Of a DNA stretch of 64,000 nt, positions 46,377-59,927 are shown piece after piece. Positions within the stretch are counted from its first letter, which is position 1. The number at the start of each line of letters is the position of its first letter. A program made the translations under genes and the position numbers. The DNA lies in assembly GCA_013178125.1 (NCBI GenBank), contig JABLXJ010000014.1, forward strand, positions 1 through 64,000, written 5' to 3'. The notes under the pieces were generated by a model that saw nothing but the letters and a program-made list of their open reading frames with translations, had not been told where the DNA came from and did not search any database. Origin of the DNA: Bacillota bacterium (GTDB taxonomy: Bacteria; Bacillota; SHA-98; Ch115; JABLXJ01).

Positions 46377-46524
46377 GGGGCGGCGCGCATCCATGCATCC
46401 ATGGTGCGCATCCATGGTATTCTTGCCCATCTATACCTCATTCATGCATGAATTCGTGGTCATTAAGGCAATACTTGATACAGCAGCATCCCGGGCGGGG
46501 GATACATCCCAGGTGGAGGATAAG

Positions 46525-49476
46525 ATGCGGGTACATATCACGGTGACCGGAGAGATCCAGGGAGTCGGGTTCAGGCCATTCATCTATCGCGTAGCCAAGG
46601 CCTGCGGCCTATCAGGATGGGTTGCGAATACCCTTGAAGGAGTCGAGATAGAATGGGAAGGCCCTGAAGCCTCAATTGAAGCAGGGCTTCAGACGCTGAG
46701 GGCTCGCCCTCCCGCAATTTCAACCATAAAGGCGATCCGGGTCCGCAAGATGCCCTCCCAATGCGCACGCGAGATATCTCCATCGTGTGAGACATTCTCC
46801 CGGTGCGCGGCAGGTAATGCTGCGATTCCGAGCTCGACCCCGGAAAACGCACGGACCAAGGGATTTGTTATACGCCAGAGTCAGATCGACAGGGATCGGT
46901 ATAGACGCGCATGGGTTGAGTATGTTGAGTATAAAGAGAATAGCCGGGGGAATAGGCGTGGGGAAAGCAGGGATAACGGTGGCCTGCTTCTCATTATGCC
47001 CGACATCGGACTCTGCGATGATTGTAGGATGGAGCTCCTATCCCCCGGAAACCGAAGATTCCGTCATCCCTTCATTAGCTGCACCTACTGTGGACCTCGC
47101 TTCACCATAATCTCGGGGGTTCCGTATGACCGGGAGAAGACATCGATGTCGCGTTTTGAGCTATGCGGCGAATGCCGCAGGGAGTATGAAGACCCCGGGG
47201 ACCGGCGCTACCACGCGCAGACTGTAGCGTGCCATGGTTGCGGCCCGCGACTCGAGTTCATCGCGCCGCACCTGGAAGCAGGCCCGAGTTTAAGCCCGGT
47301 GACCCCGGGGACCGGCCCGACCAATCAGGGCGGCAACCATATCTACGGCAACCATAGCGACCCGTGTCACACGACCGACACGATTGACGCGATTGACGCG
47401 GCGGTCGAGCTTCTCGCTGCCGGCAAGGTCGTAGCAGTGAAAGGCATTGGGGGATATCACCTGGCATGTAATGCGATGGATGAATCCGCGGTGCGGTTGC
47501 TCAGGGAACGCAAGCAGAGGGAGGACGAGCCCTTCGCTGTCATGATGAAGGATATTGATACGGTTCGCCGGTACTGCCATGTTTCACCTGAAGAAGAAAA
47601 GCTCCTGTTAAGCTGGGAAAGACCGATAGCCCTCATCACGCCAAAGGCCGCGGCCACCGGTGGCGTAAGTGATGCAAGTGCAGGCGGCACGCGCGTAGGC
47701 TCCGGTGCAGATACAGACGCAGGTGCAAGTGCAGGGGCAGGTACAGGCTCACGCGGGAACAGAACGGGCGCCGCAGGAGAAGATAGCGCAGCCGTAGCAG
47801 GCCTGGCTCCCAACGTGTCGGGCCGGAGCCGCTACCTCGGGGTGATGCTCCCCTATACGCCCGTCCACGAATTACTCCTGGCGCATACGCGCTGTCCGGA
47901 GGTCCTTGTGATGACCAGTGCCAATAGGCATGAGGAGCCGATGATCTACGGCTCCGACCCTGGCTCCGACGCCCCTAACTCCGACAGCCATAACTCTGAC
48001 GACTATAGCTGCGACGACTATAGCTCTGACGGCCGTCCCGACTCACGCCTTGACTCGCGCCTTGGGACCCTCGCCTGCGGGATCCTGACGCACGACAGGC
48101 CTATTCTGCGGAGGTGCGATGACTCAGTGGTGCGGGTTCAATCCGGCCGCCCCGTCATCATCCGGCGCTCCCGTGGCTATGTCCCGAGGCCGGTCCCGGT
48201 CTGCACCCCTGCCCGGCACTCAGGTCGCGCCCCGGCGATCCTGGCCATGGGGGGACATATGAAAAATGCCTTTTGCATCGCCAAAGGAGATATAGCCATC
48301 CCGAGCCAGTACATTGGCGACCTGGAGAGCCGGGAGGCGCAAAGGGAATATGAGATATTTATCGTCGATTTCCTCAAGCTTTTCAGATTCCGGCCTGAGC
48401 TGATAGCCTGCGACCTGCACTCGGGCTACTATTCAACCCGGCATGGACTTCACCTGGCCCGGGAATGGGGGATACCGGTCGTGAGAATTCAGCACCATCA
48501 CGCCCATATCGCCTCCTGCCTGGTGGAAAACGGTATCAGCGGCAGCGCCATAGGGGTTGCTTTCGATGGGACCGGCCTTGGATGCGACGGCCAGCTCTGG
48601 GGCGGCGAATTCCTATTTTACTCGCCCTGCCGGGGCGGTAGCGGGAATCATAGTCCCTTTGCACCCTTCGATAGCCCCTTCGTACGTTGGGCCCACCTCT
48701 CATATATACCGATGCCAGGCGGAGAGAAAGCCATCCGGGAGCCCTGGCGGATGGCTGCGGCTTACGCCGCTTTAGCCATCGGCGAAGACATATCGGCCGC
48801 CCCCCTCCCCTTCCGTGGCAGGTTGCAAGATGGTAGGTGGGGTCTCTTATGGCGAGCCACGACTGAGGGCTTGAAGGACGGACGCACGCTCCTGACCTCT
48901 AGCGTTGGGAGACTCTTCGATGCCATATCCGCCCTAATCGGTCTGCGTGAGACAACAACCTACGAAGGCCAGGCCGCGGTGGAGCTTGAATCCGAGGCTG
49001 TAAATGGCTATGGCTATGGCTATGGCTACGGGCCCGAGGTATACCCGTATGCGATATCCGGGGCGGAAGGTGACATACCCTGGACCATCGACGTGATGGA
49101 GATGATTCGAGAGATCATGCAAGAGATGATATCCGGCGTCCCCAGGGCCAGGATCGCCAGGAAATTCCACCACACCCTGGCCACGATTATAGTTGACGTC
49201 TGCCGGAGGATCAGGAAGATAACGTCCTGTAATACAGTTGCCCTGAGCGGCGGGGTATTCCAGAATGAGCTCCTTCTCTCGGATACGCTCTCTCAACTCG
49301 AGGGCGCTGGATTTACAGCTCACATACATCATCTGGTGTCAACCAATGACCAAGGCATCTCCCTAGGGCAGGCCATACTCGCTTCCGCTGTGGCTGGCAC
49401 CGTTATCGCTCGCACCGCTATCGCTGATTCCGCTGTCATCGGCCCCATCGCCCATGCGGGCGCAACAAGAGGCTAA
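46525..49476 (+). CDS. hypF: HypF, carbamoyltransferase for [NiFe]-hydrogenase cyanide ligands
   Basis: HypF makes the thiocarboxamide on HypE from carbamoyl phosphate and ATP. The domains are in the usual order: acylphosphatase (MRVHITVTGEIQGVGFRPFI), two zinc-finger halves (LCDDCRMELL/CTYCGPRFT and LCGECRREYE/CHGCGPRLEF), a YrdC-like domain (KGIGGYHLACNA) and a Kae1-like domain with RIQHHHAHIASCL near residue 655. GGAGG before the ATG at 46525 fits the acylphosphatase start. At 983 aa it is over 200 residues longer than usual (about 750-780). The excess is in low-complexity inserts at DNA 47280-47400, 47665-47775, 47950-48060 and 49000-49035. It starts the hypFCDE operon. Confidence 0.93.
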   Translation: MRVHITVTGEIQGVGFRPFIYRVAKACGLSGWVANTLEGVEIEWEGPEASIEAGLQTLRARPPAISTIKAIRVRKMPSQCAREISPSCETFSRCAAGNAAIPSSTPENARTKGFVIRQSQIDRDRYRRAWVEYVEYKENSRGNRRGESRDNGGLLLIMPDIGLCDDCRMELLSPGNRRFRHPFISCTYCGPRFTIISGVPYDREKTSMSRFELCGECRREYEDPGDRRYHAQTVACHGCGPRLEFIAPHLEAGPSLSPVTPGTGPTNQGGNHIYGNHSDPCHTTDTIDAIDAAVELLAAGKVVAVKGIGGYHLACNAMDESAVRLLRERKQREDEPFAVMMKDIDTVRRYCHVSPEEEKLLLSWERPIALITPKAAATGGVSDASAGGTRVGSGADTDAGASAGAGTGSRGNRTGAAGEDSAAVAGLAPNVSGRSRYLGVMLPYTPVHELLLAHTRCPEVLVMTSANRHEEPMIYGSDPGSDAPNSDSHNSDDYSCDDYSSDGRPDSRLDSRLGTLACGILTHDRPILRRCDDSVVRVQSGRPVIIRRSRGYVPRPVPVCTPARHSGRAPAILAMGGHMKNAFCIAKGDIAIPSQYIGDLESREAQREYEIFIVDFLKLFRFRPELIACDLHSGYYSTRHGLHLAREWGIPVVRIQHHHAHIASCLVENGISGSAIGVAFDGTGLGCDGQLWGGEFLFYSPCRGGSGNHSPFAPFDSPFVRWAHLSYIPMPGGEKAIREPWRMAAAYAALAIGEDISAAPLPFRGRLQDGRWGLLWRATTEGLKDGRTLLTSSVGRLFDAISALIGLRETTTYEGQAAVELESEAVNGYGYGYGYGPEVYPYAISGAEGDIPWTIDVMEMIREIMQEMISGVPRARIARKFHHTLATIIVDVCRRIRKITSCNTVALSGGVFQNELLLSDTLSQLEGAGFTAHIHHLVSTNDQGISLGQAILASAVAGTVIARTAIADSAVIGPIAHAGATRG
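47665..48060. repeat. Low-complexity repeat inserts within hypF
   Basis: Two separate tracts lie in the YrdC-like region: 47665-47775, with GCAGGTGCAAGTGCAGG-type hexamers encoding Ala, Gly and Ser; and 47950-48060, with GACTATAGCTCTGACGG-type units encoding Ser, Asp and Tyr. The two stretches flank conserved sequence (the YLGVMLPYTPVHELLL block). A third short tract, GGCTAT repeated at 49000-49035, encodes GYGYGYGYG in the Kae1-like part. Confidence 0.8.
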
Positions 49477-49664
49477 GTCGTAGGATCGACGGCCATATTG
49501 ACTGTATTGATCGGATGGCCGGACTGGCCAGATGGGCTGGCTCGGCCGGATTGGCCAGCCGTGAATTGACAATGAAAATTGATAATGAAACTGAAGATGA
49601 TGGTAAGAATGATAAAGAAAATGGAAAGAGCGAATAAAGATAAACAGAGGGAGTGCTGAAACCC

Positions 49665-49937
49665 GTGTGTATCGCGTTTCCTGGCATGCTCATAAGCATC
49701 GATCCCGATAACCAAAAGGGCTGCGTGGATTTCCTGGGGGTGAAGCGGGAGGTCTGCCTCTCGCTTGTTCCCAGTGCAAAAATCGGGGACTTCGTCCTTG
49801 TTCATGCTGGCTTTGCGATCGAGCAGCTCGACCCCGACATGGCGAAGGATCTTACGTCAATGCTCGAAGAACTTGGAGAGAAGCTAGAAGAGATCTATGG
49901 GTCTGAATCTCTTGCACATGAATCTTTTGCATATTGA
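49665..49937 (+). CDS. hypC: HypC, [NiFe]-hydrogenase maturation chaperone
   Basis: The 90-aa chaperone carries the Fe(CN)2CO group with HypD. It begins MCIAFPGMLISID when read from the GTG at 49665, placing the essential Cys at position 2 as in all HypC proteins, and has GDFVLVHAGFAIEQLD. An upstream ATG would bury that Cys, so GTG is preferred. It overlaps the leader part of the hypD frame. Between hypF and hypC is a 175-base gap with degenerate repeats (GGATGGCCGGACTGGCCAG-type). Confidence 0.92.
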   Translation: MCIAFPGMLISIDPDNQKGCVDFLGVKREVCLSLVPSAKIGDFVLVHAGFAIEQLDPDMAKDLTSMLEELGEKLEEIYGSESLAHESFAY

Positions 49938-49962
49938 TCCCTTGAACATGGATCTCTTGCGC
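49897..49962. repeat. 15-bp degenerate tandem repeat at the hypC/hypD junction
   Basis: Four units of 15 bp (GAATCTCTTGCACAT, GAATCTTTTGCATAT, GATCCCTTGAACAT, GATCTCTTGCGCAT) run in tandem. They extend the hypD frame upstream as NLLHMNLLHIDPLNMDLLRI and also form the C-terminus of HypC in another frame. Confidence 0.8.
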
Positions 49963-51081
49963 ATTTTTAGAGATAAAGCCCTGGTGAATCTTCTGGCCGA
50001 CAGGCTCAGGGCATATTCCGGCCCACCGGTGAGATTCATGGAGGTATGCGGTACGCACACGATGTCCGTTTTCCGCAACGGGCTTCGCGCCCTCCTGCCT
50101 CCCAATATTCACCTCCTTTCAGGGCCAGGCTGCCCCGTCTGCGTTACGCCGTCCGGATTCATAGATCAGGCGATCAGGGCCGGCACAAGGAGAGATACAA
50201 TAATCACAACATTTGGAGACCTCATACGGGTGCCGGGGTCATTAGGCACCCTTGAGCGGGCCCGGGCAGCGGAGGCTGATATCCGCATCGTCTACTCGCC
50301 CCTCGACGTGCTGCCTATAGCTCAGGCGAACCCGGGCAAGCTCGTGGTATTTCTGGCAGTGGGCTTCGAGACTACAGCCCCTGGTATTGCGCTCATGATC
50401 CAGGCGGCCGAATCCAGGGGCATTCCCAACATCAGCATACTGCCAGGCCTGAAGCGCATGCCCCCGGTCCTGCGGGCGCTGGCATCTCCCGGGGCTGGGG
50501 GGCACGGGCTGGACGGCCTCATCTGCCCGGGACACGTCGCCGCCATCATCGGTGCAGACTCATTCGGATTCCTCGCCGGTGAATGCGGGCTTCCGGCCGT
50601 GATCGCGGGATTTGAGCCGCTTGACCTGATGCTCGCCATATACAAGCTCATCAATCAGGTTGACCAGATTAACCGTGGAATACGTGAAGCTCCAGGGCTG
50701 GAAAATGCATACAAGAGGGTGGTAAAACCAGGGGGGAATACGATAGCCTGGGCAAGAGTGCAGGCTGTATTTGAGTGGTCCACCTCGGTCTGGAGGGGAT
50801 TCGGGCCGATCCCCGGATCTGGAATGGCGCTCAGGGCCGGCTACGCCCACAGGGATGCCCGGGTGATCCTCGGGCTCGACCCGGAAGAGACCATGACCGA
50901 TAACCTGGCGACGGGATGCGAGTGCGGCCTGGTCCTGAGGGGGCAGCTTTCTCCCCCCGAATGCCCGATGTTTGCGCGTGGCTGCTCCCCGGAAAGCCCG
51001 CGCGGGGCGTGTATGGTCTCCTCAGAGGGGGCATGCGCAGCCTATTACCGCTACCGCCATAGAGATGTCATAGGAGGGTGA
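49948..51081 (+). CDS. hypD: HypD, [NiFe]-hydrogenase maturation iron-sulfur protein
   Basis: HypD scaffolds assembly of the Fe(CN)2CO unit with HypC and HypE. VRFMEVCGTHTMSVFRNGLR, LLSGPGCPVCVTP, GFETTAPG and CPGHVAAIIG are present, and the C-terminal Cys cluster (CECGLVL, ECPMFARGC, ACMVSSEGACAAYY) binds the [4Fe-4S] centre. The ATG at 49948 (MDLLRIFRDKALVN) aligns with known N-termini; the upstream 17 codons are repeat-derived. Its stop overlaps the hypE start region. Confidence 0.93.
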   Translation: MDLLRIFRDKALVNLLADRLRAYSGPPVRFMEVCGTHTMSVFRNGLRALLPPNIHLLSGPGCPVCVTPSGFIDQAIRAGTRRDTIITTFGDLIRVPGSLGTLERARAAEADIRIVYSPLDVLPIAQANPGKLVVFLAVGFETTAPGIALMIQAAESRGIPNISILPGLKRMPPVLRALASPGAGGHGLDGLICPGHVAAIIGADSFGFLAGECGLPAVIAGFEPLDLMLAIYKLINQVDQINRGIREAPGLENAYKRVVKPGGNTIAWARVQAVFEWSTSVWRGFGPIPGSGMALRAGYAHRDARVILGLDPEETMTDNLATGCECGLVLRGQLSPPECPMFARGCSPESPRGACMVSSEGACAAYYRYRHRDVIGG

Positions 51082-51086
51082 TGGCT

Positions 51087-52262
51087 ATGCAAGATCAAGC
51101 TGTCGTTCAATATATGGATCAATGCATAGATCGAGATGTAATAACGCTCGCGCATGGTGGAGGGGGCGAACTAACTTACGAGCTCATCAAGGAGGTATTT
51201 CACCCTTGCTTTCATAGCCCATACCTCGATATCCTGGATGACGCCGCTCGCCTGAATATAGGGGTGGAAATGGGCACAGGCTGCCAGGGACATGACACGC
51301 TATCGCTATCGCTCCTCCCGCCTGAGCCTCCCGGCCAGCCGGCCACCGCCATGCAAGGGTGGGCGAGCTTACAGATCGCCGTTACTACTGATAGCTTTGT
51401 GGTAAGGCCGCTCTTCTTCCCGGGCGGGGATATTGGAAAGCTCGCGGTCTGCGGCACAATAAACGACCTCTCGGTCAGCGGTGCGCGCCCCCTAGCCCTG
51501 ACGTGCTCCGTTATCCTCGAGGATGGCTTCCCCCTGGATGACCTGCGCTGCATAATCGCATCCATGGCCCGGGCAGCCCGGGAGTGTGGTGTCCAGATCG
51601 TGACGGGCGATACGAAAGTCGTGGAGAGAGGGGCCTGCGGCGGGGTTTACATTAATACGACCGGACTGGGCGCCGTGTTACATCACACATCCATCAGCGG
51701 CATGAATGCACGCCCTGGTGACAGGATCCTCATCTCAGGGACCATAGGCGATCATGAGGCTTCGATCCTCCTGGCACGGCTGGAGTCGGGTTTCGAATCC
51801 GACCTGACAAGCGATGTGGCGCCGGTATGGCCGGTGGTGGAGCGGCTCCTCGATTCCCCATTTGGGCGTGATATCCATGCCATGAGGGACCCCACTCGCG
51901 GCGGTGTAGCCGCAGCCCTGAATGAGATCGCGCTGCAATCAGAGATCGAGATTCTCATTGATGAAGCTGAGCTGCCTGTGAAGCCACAGGTGAGCGCCAC
52001 CTGCGAGCTCCTGGGGCTGGACCCGCTCTACCTGGCGAGTGAAGGAAAGGTTTTGATATTCGTGTCGCTCGAATCCTCCCGCCAGGTCCTTGATATACTG
52101 AAATGCCATCCCCTGGGACGGGAGGCGCGCGTCATAGGGGAGGTAGCCAGGAAGCGCCGGCCTCGAACAGCGGCCGGCGGCCGGGTCTGGCTCAAGACGG
52201 CCTCAGGGGGAATGCGGGAAGTGCCCATGCCCGCTGGCGTGAGCCTCCCACGTATCTGCTGA
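51087..52262 (+). CDS. hypE: HypE, [NiFe]-hydrogenase maturation dehydratase
   Basis: HypE dehydrates its C-terminal thiocarboxamide to the thiocyanate that supplies cyanide. The 391-aa protein is of the AIR-synthase (PurM) type: ITLAHGGGGELTYELIKEVF, VTTDSFVVRPLFFPGGDIGK, RDPTRGGVAAALNEIA. It ends PRIC, with the terminal Cys that carries the cyanide precursor. AGGAGG nine bases upstream favours the ATG at 51087 over GTG 51078 or ATG 51081. It is the last gene of the hyp operon; hypA, hypB and the [NiFe] enzyme are not in the window. Confidence 0.93.
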   Translation: MQDQAVVQYMDQCIDRDVITLAHGGGGELTYELIKEVFHPCFHSPYLDILDDAARLNIGVEMGTGCQGHDTLSLSLLPPEPPGQPATAMQGWASLQIAVTTDSFVVRPLFFPGGDIGKLAVCGTINDLSVSGARPLALTCSVILEDGFPLDDLRCIIASMARAARECGVQIVTGDTKVVERGACGGVYINTTGLGAVLHHTSISGMNARPGDRILISGTIGDHEASILLARLESGFESDLTSDVAPVWPVVERLLDSPFGRDIHAMRDPTRGGVAAALNEIALQSEIEILIDEAELPVKPQVSATCELLGLDPLYLASEGKVLIFVSLESSRQVLDILKCHPLGREARVIGEVARKRRPRTAAGGRVWLKTASGGMREVPMPAGVSLPRIC

Positions 52263-52926: not shown

Positions 52927-53319
52927 TTACCCGTGAATCAACTGCGGCAGGCATCTCACGCATACCCAGAGGCTCTCGCCCTTCCACCTGCAAGGCATCA
53001 GGGCTCGGTCCTCCTCGCCCGCCCCGCACCTGAAGCACCTCTGCGAGATGTAGACTCCGGCCCCGGTCCGACCCGCCATATGCTCGGCGACTGCGGCCTC
53101 CGAGAAATCCGCCGCTTCCCGCTCCTCGATGGATAGAGCCCCTGTCGGGCATACGGCGAGGCAAAAGCCCGCCCCGTCGCAGAGCTCCTCCCGGAGGACC
53201 TTTGCCTTGCCGTCAACAATCTGAATTGCACCTTCGGCGCATGGGGTGACACACAGCCCGCAGCCGGTGCACTTCTCCTCGTCGATTCTGACTATCTTTC
53301 TCACTTGCCGGTTAGACAT
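52927..53319 (-). CDS. Two-cluster ferredoxin with C-terminal zinc-ribbon-like tail
   Basis: The 130-aa protein has a canonical [4Fe-4S] motif (EKCTGCGLCVTPCAEGA; Cys17, 20, 23, 27). In the second motif, CDGAGFCLAVCP, the expected Cys50 is Ala, leaving Cys47, 53 and 57 plus Asp48. The C-terminus has CFRCG and CVRC pairs (Cys95/98 and 120/123) like a zinc ribbon. Ferredoxins with this CDGxGxCL second motif are, as I recall, common beside hybrid cluster protein genes in Clostridia. It follows the cooS-like gene by 46 bases in the same direction and is its likely electron partner. Confidence 0.85.
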   Translation of the reverse strand: MSNRQVRKIVRIDEEKCTGCGLCVTPCAEGAIQIVDGKAKVLREELCDGAGFCLAVCPTGALSIEEREAADFSEAAVAEHMAGRTGAGVYISQRCFRCGAGEEDRALMPCRWKGESLWVCVRCLPQLIHG

Positions 53320-53365: not shown

Positions 53366-55246
53366 CTATATACCCAGCGCCTGCCTCTTAGCCACGATAT
53401 GCCCTTCGATGCCGTCCACTGCAGCCACAGCATCTGTCTCCACGGCCAGCTTACCGCCGGTGAGGCCCTCCACATCCCGGGTGAGGAGATTCACCACGTC
53501 AGGAGCACCAGTTACAGGAGGCACCGGCGATACATGTGTGTAGAGGCCGAGCGCCACTGCTGAAAAGGCATCAATAACCGCCTTCTGCTCCATGTATTCA
53601 GGAGCGGTCACCGCCACGGGAAGCTGGGCTGCATCAACACCAAGCGCATTCGCCACGGCCCCGACCAGGAGCGCAAGCCTGCCGGTATCAGTGCAGGTCC
53701 CGAAGCTGAGGACCGGCGGGATTCCCAAAGCCCTGCAGACCGCCTTCAACGCGTCGCCTGCGATCTCCTGGGCATCAAGGGAATTCAAGCCCGCAACCTG
53801 GCATGCCGCGTTACCGCAACCAGCCGAAAGCACCAGCATGTTGCGGCGTATGAGTTCCCGGGCGACCTCGGTTGTCATCGTATCCTGGCCGCCGTTCTTC
53901 AGCGATGTGCAGCTGACCAGCGCAACGACGCCCTTTATAGAACCGCTCTTGATGGCCTCGAGCAGAGGGTCCAGCTTCCCACCCAGCGCGCCGAGCACGG
54001 CCTCGGTGGAAAAGCCCGTTAGTATCCTGGTCCGCTTCAGGTCCCGGGCAGCGCGGTTCGCGTTCGCTTTCGCCCTGCGCCTCTTGAAGTTCTCTATCGC
54101 TATATCGATGATCTCGAGGGCCTGCTCGCCTACGTGCTCAGGGTCATATATGATCCTCTTCTCCACCCCGGGCACGCCGACCAACCTGGATACGGAGACG
54201 AGGGTTGCGCCATACCTCTCGGCTAGTGGACCAAGCGAAGGCAAGGAACAGTTCATATCCATGGCGAACACATCAACCGCCCCGGTGGCCAGGGCGAACT
54301 CCTGGGCCAACCAGTTGCCGGTAAGCCCCACAAAGACATCGTCACACGGCACCCTCTGCATTATCTCCTGGCCTGTTTCAATGGACCCGACGATTCTCAG
54401 CCCTTTTGCCCCGGCCTCCTGCGCCCTCCTCTGGACCTCCCGGGACCGGGCAGCCTCTATAAGAGCCATGCCTACAAAAGGCTCGTGACCGTTGGGGAGA
54501 ATATTGACGTAATCTGGATCGAGGATGCCAAGATCTACATACGCCTCATGGGGGCTGGGCGTGCTGAAGAGGGCATCCTGCACGATCTCGAGCGGCACGA
54601 GCGCGCCATAGCAGCTTGCGATACCAAGGCGCAATGCATTCTTCGCGAGCGACACATAATCACCATCGATGTTAGTCATTGCCCGCGCAGTCGAATCCAC
54701 GAGTTCACTCGCGGGTCCACCTGGGAATATGCCGAGATCGCGCCACAGCTTTTTCCTGGACTCTGGTGCAAAGGCATTGACAAGCACGGACTCCTCCGCG
54801 CTGTCCTGGTGAAGCGCGGCCAGCATAGCATCGGCGGTCACCTTCTCATAGCCATCGCTGCCGGTCGAGATCCCAAATGCATTCGCCAGCAGGTCCAGCT
54901 TTCCCCTGTCCTTGATCTGGAATGGAGTCCTGCCTTCTGCTGTCGCCTTAAGCGTCCTGGCCACCTCCCGGGCGTGAAAGACATAGGCTGCTATTCCCAT
55001 ATTCGCCCTGTGAACCATGTTGCGCATAACCATGCCATTTGCATCTATGCCGCACGCTCCCCTGTCAGCCTTCCGCATGATCCTGCATGGTCCCATGGAG
55101 CACAGCTGGCAGGTTATACCCTGCTCACAAAAGCTGCACCTGGCTCCCTGGGCCTCGAAGCGCTCCACCACGCTTTCAACCCCGGTATCCTTTAGCCCTC
55201 CATGCATCCTCCGGATCGACTCGTGTTCGCTTACCTTCTCCAACAT
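53366..55246 (-). CDS. cooS: Divergent CooS-family (carbon-monoxide-dehydrogenase-like) protein
   Basis: The 626-aa protein aligns by motif over the whole length of monofunctional CooS. D-cluster Cys37/Cys40 form a CX2C (the [2Fe-2S] type described for Desulfovibrio) instead of the longer spacing, and B-cluster Cys are at 46, 49, 54 and 65 (GITCQLCSMGPCRI). For the C-cluster, His254 (NGHEP), Cys333 (DMNC), Cys446 (VSCTS), Cys477 (SAGC) and Cys518 (GTCTD) are kept. The position of Cys295 of C. hydrogenoformans CODH-II (GICCTGNE) reads GSIETGQE, so Glu290 replaces that ligand. Glu at this place is reminiscent of hybrid cluster protein, so CO oxidation is doubtful. No cooC, cooF or ACS gene is nearby. 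GGGGAGGAG precedes the ATG. Confidence 0.88.
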   Translation of the reverse strand: MLEKVSEHESIRRMHGGLKDTGVESVVERFEAQGARCSFCEQGITCQLCSMGPCRIMRKADRGACGIDANGMVMRNMVHRANMGIAAYVFHAREVARTLKATAEGRTPFQIKDRGKLDLLANAFGISTGSDGYEKVTADAMLAALHQDSAEESVLVNAFAPESRKKLWRDLGIFPGGPASELVDSTARAMTNIDGDYVSLAKNALRLGIASCYGALVPLEIVQDALFSTPSPHEAYVDLGILDPDYVNILPNGHEPFVGMALIEAARSREVQRRAQEAGAKGLRIVGSIETGQEIMQRVPCDDVFVGLTGNWLAQEFALATGAVDVFAMDMNCSLPSLGPLAERYGATLVSVSRLVGVPGVEKRIIYDPEHVGEQALEIIDIAIENFKRRRAKANANRAARDLKRTRILTGFSTEAVLGALGGKLDPLLEAIKSGSIKGVVALVSCTSLKNGGQDTMTTEVARELIRRNMLVLSAGCGNAACQVAGLNSLDAQEIAGDALKAVCRALGIPPVLSFGTCTDTGRLALLVGAVANALGVDAAQLPVAVTAPEYMEQKAVIDAFSAVALGLYTHVSPVPPVTGAPDVVNLLTRDVEGLTGGKLAVETDAVAAVDGIEGHIVAKRQALGI

Positions 55247-55405
55247 GCTTTTCTCCTCCCCTTTTTCTTGGTTTTTGTGTCTTGTTTTTCTTGGTCTCCC
55301 ATATGGGCTTTATTTTAGAATAGGTCTTATCTTAGATTAGACCCCGAGCCACTGGCATAGCGCCACAGGCAATGGAAATATGATTTGAGAATGACCAGGT
55401 AATTT

Positions 55406-55864
55406 TCAGGCTAGGCCCCCATGCCACGGTGCGACACCTTCGCCCGGGTCATCACCATACTGCTGCCTGGTAAGCCCCTCCAGGGTTATACTCTCGAGAA
55501 ATCCTACAAACTCCCTTTGAATACCGACCCAGCTCTCCCGGAGCTTGCAGGTGTCCCAGCGTTCGCAAGCATCCCTGCCAAGAAGGCAGCGATTGACGGC
55601 TATAGGTCCTTGAATTGCCTCCACTATCTCACGAGCCGTTATATCTCTTGGGTCCCGCCCAAGCGAGAACCCACCTCGAGATCCTCTAGTGGAAACAAGG
55701 AGCCCAGTGCCTACAAGCTTCCGGAATATCTTGCGCAGAAATTCCTCCGGGATGTTCTCGGCCGCAGCAATTTCCGCGATCGAGAAAACATCGCGCGACG
55801 GCTGGCCTGCCATATATACGAGCGCGCGGAGCGCGTAATCTGTGTTCCTCCTGATAAACTCCAC
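55406..55864 (-). CDS. Rrf2-family transcriptional regulator (IscR/NsrR-like)
   Basis: The 152-aa regulator has the Rrf2 winged helix (MEFIRRNTDYALRALVYMAG, IAEIAAAENIPEEFLRKIFR, STRGSRGGFSLGR) and three Cys (93, 100, 106) in the loop that binds a [2Fe-2S] or [4Fe-4S] cluster. Cluster-bound Rrf2 proteins sense iron-sulfur status or nitric oxide. It lies 159 bases upstream of the cooS-like gene in the same direction and so is its probable regulator. Confidence 0.9.
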   Translation of the reverse strand: MEFIRRNTDYALRALVYMAGQPSRDVFSIAEIAAAENIPEEFLRKIFRKLVGTGLLVSTRGSRGGFSLGRDPRDITAREIVEAIQGPIAVNRCLLGRDACERWDTCKLRESWVGIQREFVGFLESITLEGLTRQQYGDDPGEGVAPWHGGLA

Positions 55865-56445
55865 AACTGCAACCCCTATCCAACATGATCGTATTAAGTA
55901 TTGACTTTAATATCTTCCCAATTAATACTTTCTATATCGAACACCTTCGCATTAAACACCTTCGTGATTATCCTTATTATTTATTATCCTTGGCATCCTC
56001 GGTTTTGAACCTGTGATTCTCATCACAATTCTATACAGGACTATTTTAGTCCCATATCTTCGAGATGTCAATACCCAAAATCAACACCCCAAAGTAGAGT
56101 CCCACCTGATTCATCCCCGGGAATATGCGTGCCACATATGCGCGCCACACGCACGCTATGAAATGGCCCGCTCCATTCCCCAAGGTTTCATATGGAATAT
56201 ATGGAACATGTGGAATATGAAAAAGGAAAATCATGAACTTCGTCGAATGAATCAACGGGTTATAGAAATCAATGGATTATAGAATTATAATTGCAAACGA
56301 TCCACGGCTTATATCTAAGCTTGATTTAATTACATCCAGAATGTTGAACGGCAAATCTGCCGGGGCGTTTTTGTGCCGGTGTTTTCCATGATGGGTAGCA
56401 CTGCTGCTAAAGCACTGCTGATACGTAAAGCTTGGGGGTGGGGCT
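55865..56445. other. 581-base gap between Rrf2 and GAF genes (divergent control region)
   Basis: No gene is supported. The Rrf2-proximal 100 bases are AT-rich, with overlapping inverted motifs (AAGTATT ... AATACTT, TATTAA ... TTAATA) that could be Rrf2 sites. At 56195-56230 GGAATATATGGAACATGTGG is a short degenerate repeat. A small hairpin (CGGCA-AATC-TGCCG) followed by GGGCGTTTTT lies near 56350-56373 on the plus strand, upstream of the GAF gene; its role is uncertain. Confidence 0.45.
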
Positions 56446-57558
56446 ATGGAGATTGAATTCAGAAAACGAGCCCTTTGCGAGATGTGCGAAGCTGTGAATT
56501 CCGCGCTGGAACTCAGGGAGGCTCTGGAGGTCATCACAAAGAATGCCGTTGATAAGCTGGGGCTCAAGGCAAGTTCCATCAGGCTCTTGGACCCCAAAAG
56601 GGAGATATTGGAGATAGCGGCAGCCTGCGGGCTGAGTGACGCATACCTCAAGAAGGGCCCCGTCAAGGTCAGCAATAGCCAGATCGATAGGGAGGCTCTA
56701 GGGGGCAAGCTGGTCTTTGTATATGATGTGACAAGCGACCGCCGCGTCCAGTACCCAGAGGAGATGAAAAGGGAGGGTCTATCCTCCCTCCTGTGTATAC
56801 CGATCTCCTTTAAGGGCCAGCCGATCGGGGTATTGCGGGCCTACACCGGGGAGCTACACGAGTTTACACCCGATGAGATCGACGTCCTCTGCATCCTTGC
56901 AGCCCAGGGCGGGGTAGCGATAAGAAATGCCAGGCTTCACCACAGGACGCGCACCCTTTCTGAGATTGCAGGGAGAATAAATTCCACCCTCGAACTTGCA
57001 GAGGTCCTGGATCTCCTGGTGGAGAACGCGGCGAAAGCCCTGGATGTCAAGGCTGCCTCGCTCAGGCTCTTAGATCGTTCGGGGAAGAGGCTCGTTGTCA
57101 GCTCGGCCTATGGCCTGAGCGAGGAATATCTCCAGAAGGGGCCTGTAGATGTTGAGCGGAGCATACTTGACGGGGAGGTGCTCTCCGGAGGGCGCCCTGT
57201 GAAGCTCCTGGAGGCTGCAGAAGACCCCCGCTTTCAATACCGCCAGGAAGCCGAGCGAGAAGGAATAAGGTCGGTGCTCTGCGTCCCTCTTTTTGTGAAG
57301 GAAAAGCCTGTAGGGGTGCTCAGGGTTTACACTGAAATGCCGTATGACTTCGCGGAGGATGAGGTCGATTTCCTTACTGCGCTTGGCAACCTGGGGGCGA
57401 TCGCCATCGAGAATGCGAGGATGTACAAGGAGCTCAAAGATAACTACGACCGGCTTATGACGGACATAGCGGCCCTTCATGAGTGGGGAGGCGGGCGTCA
57501 TGGAGTGCATGGAACACAGGGAACACCACAGGGAACACAAGGAGACTTGCGCGGATGA
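56446..57558 (+). CDS. Tandem GAF-domain protein upstream of the hydrogenase genes
   Basis: The 370-aa protein consists of two similar GAF domains: CEAVNSALELREALEVITKN to the end of domain one near residue 165 (GGVAIRNARL), then AGRINSTLELAEVLDLLVEN to LGAIAIENARM near residue 325. Paired blocks such as YLKKGPVKV / YLQKGPVDV and SSLLCIPISFKGQPIGVLR / SVLCVPLFVKEKPVGVLR show internal duplication. There is no output domain, so it may sense a small ligand or redox signal and act through protein contact. The last 25 codons (GVHGTQGTPQGTQG) are repeat-derived and overlap the next gene. GGGGGTGGGGCT precedes the ATG. Confidence 0.85.
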   Translation: MEIEFRKRALCEMCEAVNSALELREALEVITKNAVDKLGLKASSIRLLDPKREILEIAAACGLSDAYLKKGPVKVSNSQIDREALGGKLVFVYDVTSDRRVQYPEEMKREGLSSLLCIPISFKGQPIGVLRAYTGELHEFTPDEIDVLCILAAQGGVAIRNARLHHRTRTLSEIAGRINSTLELAEVLDLLVENAAKALDVKAASLRLLDRSGKRLVVSSAYGLSEEYLQKGPVDVERSILDGEVLSGGRPVKLLEAAEDPRFQYRQEAEREGIRSVLCVPLFVKEKPVGVLRVYTEMPYDFAEDEVDFLTALGNLGAIAIENARMYKELKDNYDRLMTDIAALHEWGGGRHGVHGTQGTPQGTQGDLRG

Positions 57559-57940
57559 GACTTGCGCGAATGAAGCTCACGCGGGTAAGGCTTGCGCGGG
57601 CGAGACGATAGCCCAAGCTACAAGAGCCGCGGGCCAAGCAGAGGGGAAGACTGCAGGACTTACTGAGATTGTAATTGGAATGGCCACATGCGGGATAGCC
57701 TCGGGCGCAGAGGCCGTATTCAGAGCCTTTGAGGAAGCCTTGAAGGAGAAAGGGCTCGCGGATGCCAGGGTCACCGGGACGGGATGCCTAGGAAGGTGCG
57801 TAAAAGAACCCCTCGTAGAGGTGATCAGGCCGGGCGAACCGCCGGTGTTCTATGCAAATGTGACCCCTGAGAAGGCCCGCGAGATAGTAGATCGCCACAT
57901 AGGGAAGGGAGAGGTTGTCGCCGAGCTGGAGCTAAGGTAA
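57500..57940 (+). CDS. Thioredoxin-like [2Fe-2S] ferredoxin subunit (HndB-like)
   Basis: The 146-aa protein ends in a thioredoxin-like [2Fe-2S] domain (IVIGMATCGIASGAEAVFRA, TGTGCLGRCVKEPLVEVIR), like HndB of the four-subunit NADP-reducing hydrogenase of Desulfovibrio. The N-terminal 45 residues (EHREHHREHKETCADETCAN, EAHAGKACAGET) are a repeat-derived extension not typical of the family. GGGGAGG before the ATG at 57500 sets the start. It overlaps the GAF gene by 59 bases and precedes the NuoF-like gene, so it should be an electron-transfer subunit of the hydrogenase. Confidence 0.8.
   Translation: MECMEHREHHREHKETCADETCANEAHAGKACAGETIAQATRAAGQAEGKTAGLTEIVIGMATCGIASGAEAVFRAFEEALKEKGLADARVTGTGCLGRCVKEPLVEVIRPGEPPVFYANVTPEKAREIVDRHIGKGEVVAELELR
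57505..57605. repeat. Repeat tract overlapping the GAF/HndB-like junction
   Basis: ACAGGGAACACCACAGGGAA and then GACTTGCGCGGATGAGACTT-like 15-bp units occur in tandem with drift. They are read in two frames: as the GAF C-terminus and as the HndB-like N-terminus. Confidence 0.75.
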
Positions 57941-58145
57941 GCGGCGACGATGGGTGTTGGGCTTCTAGGCTTGAAGTTCGAGGCTCGAGGCCCGAAGCTT
58001 GCTGCTAAAGCCTGGGTAGCTAAATCACAACAGGCGGGGTGGCGATGGGCGATATCGGGGGCTGGGTCATGGTATTCATGATATTGCGGCGAAACTGAGT
58101 CGAGCGGAGCTGAGAGCTTACGGGGTTACGGGGGTTGAGGGATTG

Positions 58146-59927
58146 ATGGAGGTACTGATCTGTTCCGGGACGGGTTGCCTTGCTTCTGGCGCGAAGAACC
58201 TCGAGAAGCGGCTCGAGGAGGAGATAGAACAAAACGGCCTCGCAGGAAAGGTCCGGCTCACCGAGGCGGGGTGTCTTGGGCTTTGCGAGAAGGGGCCTAT
58301 CCTGCTCGTATATCCGGGGGGCATTCTCTATGCGGGAGTTGAGGCCGGTGATATAACCGAAATAGTGCAGAAGCACCTCCTGGGCCGCCAGGTGGTGGAG
58401 AGATTAAGATATAACGGGCCCGCCCCGAAGGTTCCCGTACGAAGCATAGGCGACGTAGGTTTCTACCGCAAGCAGCTCCGGGTCGCGTTGAGAAACTGCG
58501 GCATCATTAACCCCGGGAGCATAGAAGATTATATGGGTGCCAGGGGTTACAGGGCCCTCAGTAAGGTGCTCACGGCTATGAGTCCGCAGGAAGTCGTCGA
58601 TGAAGTCAAAACTTCCAAGCTCCGGGGGAGAGGTGGCGCCGGGTTTCCAACCGGCATAAAATGGCAGTTTGTGGCCGATGCAAAAGGAAAAAGGAAGTAT
58701 GTCATATGTAACGCCGACGAGGGTGACCCCGGGGCCTTTATGGACCGCAGCATTCTTGAGGGGGACCCGCACAGCGTCATCGAAGGCATGATCATAGGTG
58801 GGTATGCAATCGGCTCCAATCAGGGTTATATATATGTGAGAGCCGAATATCCCCTGGCTATTGAGAGGCTCCAGGGGGCTGTCGAGCAGGCTGAGCGCTC
58901 CGGGTTCCTCGGGAGGAACATCCTCGGCTCGGGGTTTGACTTTAATATAGAACTGAGGTTCGGCGCGGGAGCCTTCGTATGCGGCGAGGAGACGGCGCTC
59001 ATCGCCTCTATCGAAGGCAGGCGAGGCATGCCAAGGCCGCGCCCTCCCTACCCGGCCACAAGCGGCCTGTGGGGGATGCCCACCCTGATAAACAATGTTG
59101 AGACATGGGCGAATATCCCTCCCATTATCCTTGAAGGGGCAAGGTGGTTCGCCAGCATCGGCACTGAAAGGAGCAAGGGAACGAAGGTCTTCGCGCTCGC
59201 CGGAAAGATAAACAATACTGGGCTCGTAGAGGTCCCCATGGGGATAACGCTCCGTGAGATAATCTTCGATATCGGCGGCGGGATCCGAGATGGCAAACAG
59301 TTCAAGGCCGCTCAAACCGGCGGCCCCTCGGGCGGGTGCCTCCCCGAGAAATACCTCGACATTCCCATCGATTACGACAACCTCCTCCAGGCGGGTTCGA
59401 TGATGGGTTCAGGTGGACTCATAGTCATGGACCAGGACAGCTGTATGGTGGAGGTGGCGAGGTTCTTTTTGGAGTTTACCCAGGATGAATCGTGCGGGAA
59501 ATGCACCCCTTGCAGGGAGGGCACCAAACGGATGCTCGAGATCCTGACTCGCATTACGCAAGGCAAGGGGGAGCCAGCTGACGTCGACAAGTTGCTGCGG
59601 CTCGGCAGGATGATAAAACGAGCTTCGCTGTGCGGGCTCGGTCAGACGGCGCCAAACCCCGTCTTGAGCACCCTCGAGCATTTCAGGGAGGAATACGAGG
59701 CTCACATCCTCGAGCGGCGGTGCCCTGCCAGAGTGTGCGTCGCACTCCTCAACTACTTCATAGATGCAGAAAAGTGCATTGGCTGCGGGCTCTGCAAGAA
59801 GGCTTGCCCCACCGGGGCCATCTCAGGTGAATTGCGTAAGGTCCATGTTATCGACCAGGAGAAATGCATCAAGTGTGGAGAGTGCGCTAAGGCCTGTAAG
59901 AAATTCAAGGCTATTTATCGCGCCTAG
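58146..59927 (+). CDS. NuoF/HndC-like flavoprotein subunit of the NAD(P)-linked [FeFe] hydrogenase
   Basis: The 593-aa subunit starts with a thioredoxin-like [2Fe-2S] domain (ICSGTGCLASGAKNLEKRL, AGCLGLCEKGP), then the NuoF NADH/FMN core (KLRGRGGAGFPTGIKW, CNADEGDPGAFMDRSILEGD, GAGAFVCGEETALIASIEG) and the SESCGKC-type [4Fe-4S] site (ESCGKCTPCREGT ... LCGLG). A two-cluster ferredoxin tail follows (CIGCGLCKKACPTGAI, CIKCGECAKACKKFK). It would exchange electrons with NAD(P)H and pass them to HydA, and in bifurcating enzymes also to ferredoxin. The ATG at 58146 is used. The gap before it (57941-58145) holds a short repeat tract and nothing else. Confidence 0.92.
   Translation: MEVLICSGTGCLASGAKNLEKRLEEEIEQNGLAGKVRLTEAGCLGLCEKGPILLVYPGGILYAGVEAGDITEIVQKHLLGRQVVERLRYNGPAPKVPVRSIGDVGFYRKQLRVALRNCGIINPGSIEDYMGARGYRALSKVLTAMSPQEVVDEVKTSKLRGRGGAGFPTGIKWQFVADAKGKRKYVICNADEGDPGAFMDRSILEGDPHSVIEGMIIGGYAIGSNQGYIYVRAEYPLAIERLQGAVEQAERSGFLGRNILGSGFDFNIELRFGAGAFVCGEETALIASIEGRRGMPRPRPPYPATSGLWGMPTLINNVETWANIPPIILEGARWFASIGTERSKGTKVFALAGKINNTGLVEVPMGITLREIIFDIGGGIRDGKQFKAAQTGGPSGGCLPEKYLDIPIDYDNLLQAGSMMGSGGLIVMDQDSCMVEVARFFLEFTQDESCGKCTPCREGTKRMLEILTRITQGKGEPADVDKLLRLGRMIKRASLCGLGQTAPNPVLSTLEHFREEYEAHILERRCPARVCVALLNYFIDAEKCIGCGLCKKACPTGAISGELRKVHVIDQEKCIKCGECAKACKKFKAIYRA

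Follow-up and report, generated by a model that had tools for sequence, protein, structure and literature searches.

Introduction

CooS proteins in which a glutamate takes the place of Cys295, a ligand of the CO dehydrogenase (CODH) C-cluster, have been described before as hybrid-cluster proteins (PMC6344411, PMC9311411). Their group, clade D-1, was defined by Inoue et al. (PMC6344411), and its prototype, CooS-V of Carboxydothermus hydrogenoformans, was studied by Jeoung et al. and combines the typical CODH fold with a Ni-free Fe/S/O hybrid cluster (PMC9311411). CooS-V neither oxidizes CO nor reduces CO2, NO reduction is not detectable, hydroxylamine is turned over with a kcat of 0.13/s, and the hybrid cluster has potentials about 300 mV lower than in E. 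coli HCP (PMC9311411). The same study reported that the cluster rearranges with redox state and turnover is poor, that the substrate channels open upon reduction, and that the C295E variant of CODH-II is Ni-deficient and inactive (PMC9311411). A CX2C-bound [2Fe-2S] D-cluster has been tied to O2 tolerance in the CODH of D. vulgaris, according to the passage of PMC9311411 that cites Wittenborn. As to genomic context, a 2026 clade survey found no clear operon pattern for clade D genes, 64% of which were solitary (PMC13056359).

The hybrid cluster protein HCP offers the second comparison. FrdX was named as the gene adjoining hcp (PMC545781, PMC1274295), hcp-frdX operons have been published, and knockdown of frdX makes C. 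difficile NO-sensitive (PMC1274295, PMC12915319); in the literature we found no paper tying FrdX to a CooS of the D-1 kind. Many proteins of anaerobes annotated as CO dehydrogenase are of the Glu type, so that CO metabolism is wrongly inferred from them. Here we describe such a gene in a stretch of 64,000 nucleotides of a Bacillota genome (GCA_013178125.1, contig JABLXJ010000014.1, positions 1 to 64,000; the window), where it stands in a conserved unit with a regulator and a ferredoxin.

The CooS-V-type protein and its locus

Three genes on the minus strand of the window are transcribed in the order rrf2-cooS-fd. The first-pass annotation had placed cooS between an Rrf2 regulator with three cysteines and a ferredoxin with a CDGAGFC motif, an arrangement borne out by the ORFs and the sequence, although the interval that it delimited (53366-55864) spans only rrf2 and cooS and the ferredoxin ORF lies just outside. 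Translations read by eye indicate hydrogenase maturation genes (hypF, hypC, hypD and hypE-like, 46393-52262) on one flank of the unit and, on the other (56446-59927), a divergent double-GAF gene followed by NuoE/NuoF-like genes; among these flanking genes, the family scan covered the GAF gene and a [2Fe-2S] thioredoxin-like gene.

The cooS gene (53366..55246, minus strand) encodes a protein of 626 aa, labeled CODH/prismane by NCBIfam and Pfam. Among solved structures it matches CooS-V best (PDB 7b7q; E 1e-214), at 717 bits compared with 404 for the CODH that comes second, and the window protein and CooS-V align end to end with 341/623 identical residues (about 55%). The alignment places E290, within GSIETGQE, on E295 of CooS-V, with no Cys at this position, and pairs H254, C333, C446, C477 and C518 with H259, C338, C449, C480 and C521, so that all residues of the Fe/S/O cluster of CooS-V are kept; these six positions are the ones that the first-pass annotation had read from the letters. 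The D-cluster pair that it had noted is likewise present (C37/C40, CX2C, Gly41 to Cys), and the B-cluster cysteines are C46, C49, C54 and C65; a CX2C bridging cluster and a [4Fe-4S] B-cluster are predicted beside the hybrid cluster. Three further residues had gone unmentioned: a second Glu of the hybrid-cluster type, E553, equivalent to E556 of CooS-V, whose counterpart in D. vulgaris HCP is E494 (PMC9311411); Y88, which occupies the position of the CODH acid-base His; and N332, where other CODHs mostly carry Gln.

In CooS-V numbering, Y91, E295, N337 and E556 are invariant over 98 D-1 type proteins (the window protein and 97 others), and Cys295 is kept in 22/22 other CODHs, which mostly have His91 and Gln337, whereas position 91 is Tyr or Asn and position 337 Asn in a minority. 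With the diagnostic residues kept in 97/97 of the other D-1 proteins and Cys295 in all 22 CODHs, this pattern is not due to chance. The tree of CooS clades, a quick tree of 116 sequences with long branches among the rows outside D-1, puts the window protein within D-1, which is split from the rest by a branch with a support of 100. Its subgroup comprises Bacillota MAGs, Armatimonadota-type MAGs (WS1, Zipacnadia) and neighbors such as Desulfurobacteriaceae, and is separate from the Clostridia-type subgroup that holds CooS-V itself. The window protein thus shares with CooS-V of C. hydrogenoformans all cluster ligands, the CX2C D-cluster and the Tyr at the acid-base His position, but belongs to another D-1 subclade and is accompanied by an Rrf2 with a private operator and by a FrdX-type ferredoxin. 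Against the HCP family model TIGR01703 it reaches 59.3 bits, far under the cut-off of 360.8.

We therefore regard the window protein as almost certainly of the CooS-V type and not a CODH, in line with the view taken in the first-pass annotation. By analogy with the crystal structures of the homologue, from which both the type of cluster and the missing CO activity are taken, it is expected to hold an Fe/S/O hybrid cluster. That such a protein is not a CODH is well supported but already published; the genomic context is the new part.

The Rrf2-type regulator and its predicted operator

The rrf2 gene (55406..55864, minus strand, GTG start) encodes 152 aa with three putative cluster cysteines, C93, C100 and C106, spaced C-x6-C-x5-C; Arg109 stands at the position of the IscR ligand His107, so that the Cys3His set is not present. 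The protein falls below the curated models of IscR, NsrR, RirA and CymR, with 76 bits against a cut-off of 207.55 for IscR (TIGR02010) and 60.8 bits against 182 for NsrR (NF008240). Upstream lies a sigma-70 type promoter of the unit (TTGACA-N17-TAAAAT, 11/12 matches; 56043..56071, minus strand), whose -10 box is covered by the perfect palindrome GGACTA-AAA-TAGTCC (56038..56052, assigned to no strand), the predicted Rrf2 operator, present in one copy in the genome.

This arrangement is conserved. In 9/9 related genomes with a cooS match rrf2 lies directly upstream of cooS, and in all nine it is preceded by TTGACA-N17-TA(A/G)AAT whose -10 hexamer is overlapped by AGGACTA-N3-TAGTCCT or a closely similar sequence, within flanking DNA that has diverged. 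The exact 12-base palindrome GGACTA-N3-TAGTCC occurs once per genome in 7/9, always at the rrf2-cooS promoter, the other two having near matches; a reversed-pattern control gave three sites in the 17 class genomes taken together. A counterpart precedes rrf2 in four Armatimonadota-type loci, where the gene order is rrf2-fd-cooS; there, TGGASTA-N3-TASTCCA or a sequence close to it comes after TTGACA. On the D-1 tree the Rrf2 label needs 2 changes, so that counts of loci are not counts of independent events.

The operator matches 20/25 positions of the IscR type-1 consensus ATASYYGACTRWWWYAGTCRRSTAT, a string given in PMC3899308 and others, compared with 19 or fewer in other 250-base stretches; the core GACTA-N3-TAGTC is shared and the flanks differ. 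In its core it looks like an IscR type-1 box and not like an NsrR site, and neither the operator nor the score of the protein supports the analogy to NsrR drawn in the first-pass annotation. The window regulator resembles the IscR/NsrR branch as a winged-helix Rrf2 with three Cys whose palindromic operator overlaps the promoter and has a core like that of the IscR type-1 box, but differs from it in falling below the models named above and in having a single site per genome, which makes it a local and not a global regulator. Given the conserved promoter and palindrome, the single site and the Armatimonadota-type counterpart, autorepression by a dedicated Rrf2 is the simplest reading, and we infer that Rrf2 likely represses its own promoter through the predicted operator. 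A regulator serving only this unit would also fit the decay seen in one genome (G009, L224/L198), where cooS has been lost, the rrf2 reading frame ends after 37 codons and the -35 box has decayed, but the operator and the ferredoxin are kept, a pattern to be read with care in a draft assembly.

In another genome (G014, L022/L225) promoter and rrf2 are intact, but 345 residues are missing from the N-terminus of CooS and 97 from that of the ferredoxin, through either a real deletion or a misassembly. Just downstream of the Rrf2 operator lies a CRP/HcpR-like palindrome (TGTGAT-GAGA-ATCACA, 56012-56027), which is not conserved in the closest relative (L028) and may therefore be due to chance. Neighboring HcpR-like CRP/FNR regulators, found within 5 kb at 11/80 D-1 loci, were considered and dropped, similar ones occurring near 2/20 other CODHs and 4/20 hcp loci.

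The FrdX-type ferredoxin

The ferredoxin gene (52927..53319, minus strand) starts 46 bp downstream of cooS and encodes 130 aa, with an N-terminal FrdX-type domain defined by CX2CX2CX3C followed by CDGxGxCxxxCP, seven Cys of which are invariant across the family. As the second Fe-S motif has three Cys only, one cluster may be a [3Fe-4S] or use another ligand. The domain is 64% identical to that of a FrdX adjoining hcp in another Bacillota genome, and the first-pass suggestion that the ferredoxin is of the kind that accompanies hcp is borne out. The C-terminal FrdX domain (WPVQL...VPCC) is absent, its place being taken by a CX2C...CX2C tail of about 40 aa that is also found in the kin of the window form; AlphaFold gave the ferredoxin a pLDDT of 54 and no usable fold for the tail.

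Relatives of FrdX lie within 3 kb of D-1 cooS in 18/80 loci, which are spread over six lineages or more (Bacillota, Armatimonadota-type, Nitrospirota, Methanoperedens-type archaea, Thermoplasmata and an actinobacterium) and in several gene orders and orientations. None was near CODHs of other clades (0/20 loci, with just weak generic ferredoxin matches of 28-45% identity), and 2/20 hcp loci had one; from the FrdX side, hcp was within 1.5 kb in 14/30 Bacillota FrdX loci. The majority of D-1 loci lack both FrdX and Rrf2 within 3 kb, and with 10 changes required on the D-1 tree to account for the FrdX label, these counts again are not independent events. All neighborhoods were taken from draft genomes. 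The short ferredoxin is found outside the unit as well: in the sister genus it stands alone, with no cooS. We consider it rather probable that the FrdX-type protein is the redox partner of the window CooS.

With the hcp-frdX pairs of the HcpR regulon the window unit has in common the hybrid-cluster Glu ligands and an adjoining ferredoxin of the same family. It differs in that its enzyme is CooS-type and far from the HCP cut-off (59 of 360.8 bits), its regulator is an Rrf2 and not the CRP/FNR-type HcpR, and its ferredoxin carries a short Cys-rich tail in place of the long C-terminal domain.

Elsewhere, a FrdX gene (L173, 982-2196) stands beside an Rrf2 gene 49% identical to that of the window, with no hcp or cooS within 1.5 kb, and in two ferredoxins (L029, 10546-11058; L030, 10549-11103) a long Gln/Pro-rich repeat linker separates the ferredoxin domain from the Cys-rich tail. 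The genome of Methanoperedens BLZ2 encodes a pair of D-1 CooS paralogues (L061, L071), and FrdX lies near just one of them.

Distribution of cooS-V, hcp and other CODH genes

The class of the window organism is represented by 17 genomes, nine of them with a cooS-V match, which in one is a fragment only; seven of the nine, counting the fragmentary one with its partial copy, have the ferredoxin. No HCP was found in the genome of the window. D-1 cooS and hcp, the latter searched for with PF03063, never occur together in the 17 genomes; we do not take this as strong evidence of mutual exclusion, because few lineages bear on it, with hcp confined to one genus within the class, and both genes share genomes outside it. 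The genome of the window encodes a second CooS, with the full Cys set including Cys295, in a complete CODH/ACS operon on another contig. No cooC-like gene was seen adjoining the window cooS, and a genome search with a generic, approximate CooC N-terminus query returned candidate ATPases, of which two map to the contig that bears the CODH/ACS operon.

Possible function of the unit

On balance, the unit is best read as encoding a self-repressed, FrdX-fed, low-potential hybrid-cluster reductase. Rrf2, carrying an Fe-S cluster on Cys93, Cys100 and Cys106, would occupy the palindrome at the -10 box and silence its own promoter, which would become active again when NO, oxidants or a lack of iron modify or destroy the cluster. 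The enzyme would be a Ni-free homodimer in which a [2Fe-2S] D-cluster and a [4Fe-4S] B-cluster feed the Fe/S/O hybrid cluster, with the FrdX-type ferredoxin as the likely electron donor. Once reduced, it may in turn reduce a small oxidized molecule; hydroxylamine, NO or another N-oxide is the most likely candidate, and the choice of substrate is the least certain step. Kinship to FrdX and the hybrid cluster suggest an N-oxide, yet this may not be the substrate, since CooS-V does not detectably reduce NO, is very slow with hydroxylamine and has potentials about 300 mV lower (PMC9311411). With these assays of the homologue, an IscR-like operator and a short FrdX devoid of the hcp-linked C-terminal domain, caution is in order, and N-oxide detoxification, close to the nitrosative-stress role proposed in the first-pass annotation, is put forward as a tentative function. 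Broader still, and doubtful, is the idea that Rrf2-CooS-V-FrdX forms a second, independently evolved FrdX-dependent hybrid-cluster detoxification system, in which a former CODH with the ferredoxin partner of HCP would replace HCP in lineages that lack it, under a dedicated single-operator Fe-S repressor. A conserved repressor, a private single operator and an hcp-type ferredoxin are in any case concrete handles on the function of CooS-V-type proteins, the inducing signal being readable from the promoter and the electron donor testable in a reconstituted assay, and this operon context contrasts with surveys reporting clade D as mostly solitary (PMC13056359).

The same hybrid-cluster enzyme could instead protect against oxidative or Fe-S stress, acting on peroxide, sulfur or another low-potential substrate, with Rrf2 as an IscR-like sensor of Fe-S status and not of NO. 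This alternative is credible, if short of probable: the IscR-like operator (core GACTA-N3-TAGTC, 20/25) points as readily to Fe-S or oxidative stress as it does to NO, and the very low cluster potentials of CooS-V (PMC9311411) and the link of a CX2C [2Fe-2S] D-cluster to O2 tolerance in D. vulgaris CODH, in the passage citing Wittenborn, agree with it, but the kinship of FrdX leads to the NO-responsive hcp system (PMC12915319), and Rrf2 has Arg109 in place of the IscR His and scores 76 of 207.55 bits with the IscR model. A redox-sensing or regulatory protein with no metabolic substrate, the role that the authors of PMC13056359 propose for clades C and D, appears unlikely: redox-driven cluster rearrangement and poor turnover of CooS-V would suit it, but an enzyme is suggested by the opening of the substrate channels upon reduction (PMC9311411), by the dedicated ferredoxin linked to cooS and by a fully conserved cluster pocket. 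A working Ni,Fe CODH, with Glu substituting for Cys295 at no loss of function, has next to no probability despite the CODH/prismane label and the CODH/ACS operon of the organism, as the Ni,Fe ligand set is incomplete (E290 where Cys295 is required), CooS-V has neither CO activity nor Ni and the C295E exchange leaves CODH-II inactive and deficient in Ni (PMC9311411), Cys295 is kept by the other CooS of the genome, in the CODH/ACS operon, and no cooC-like gene adjoins the window cooS.

Two CODH-like proteins (L131, L133) with rrf2 directly upstream retain Cys295 but have Tyr91, Asn337, Glu556 and Gln558 (CooS-V numbering), an intermediate residue set.
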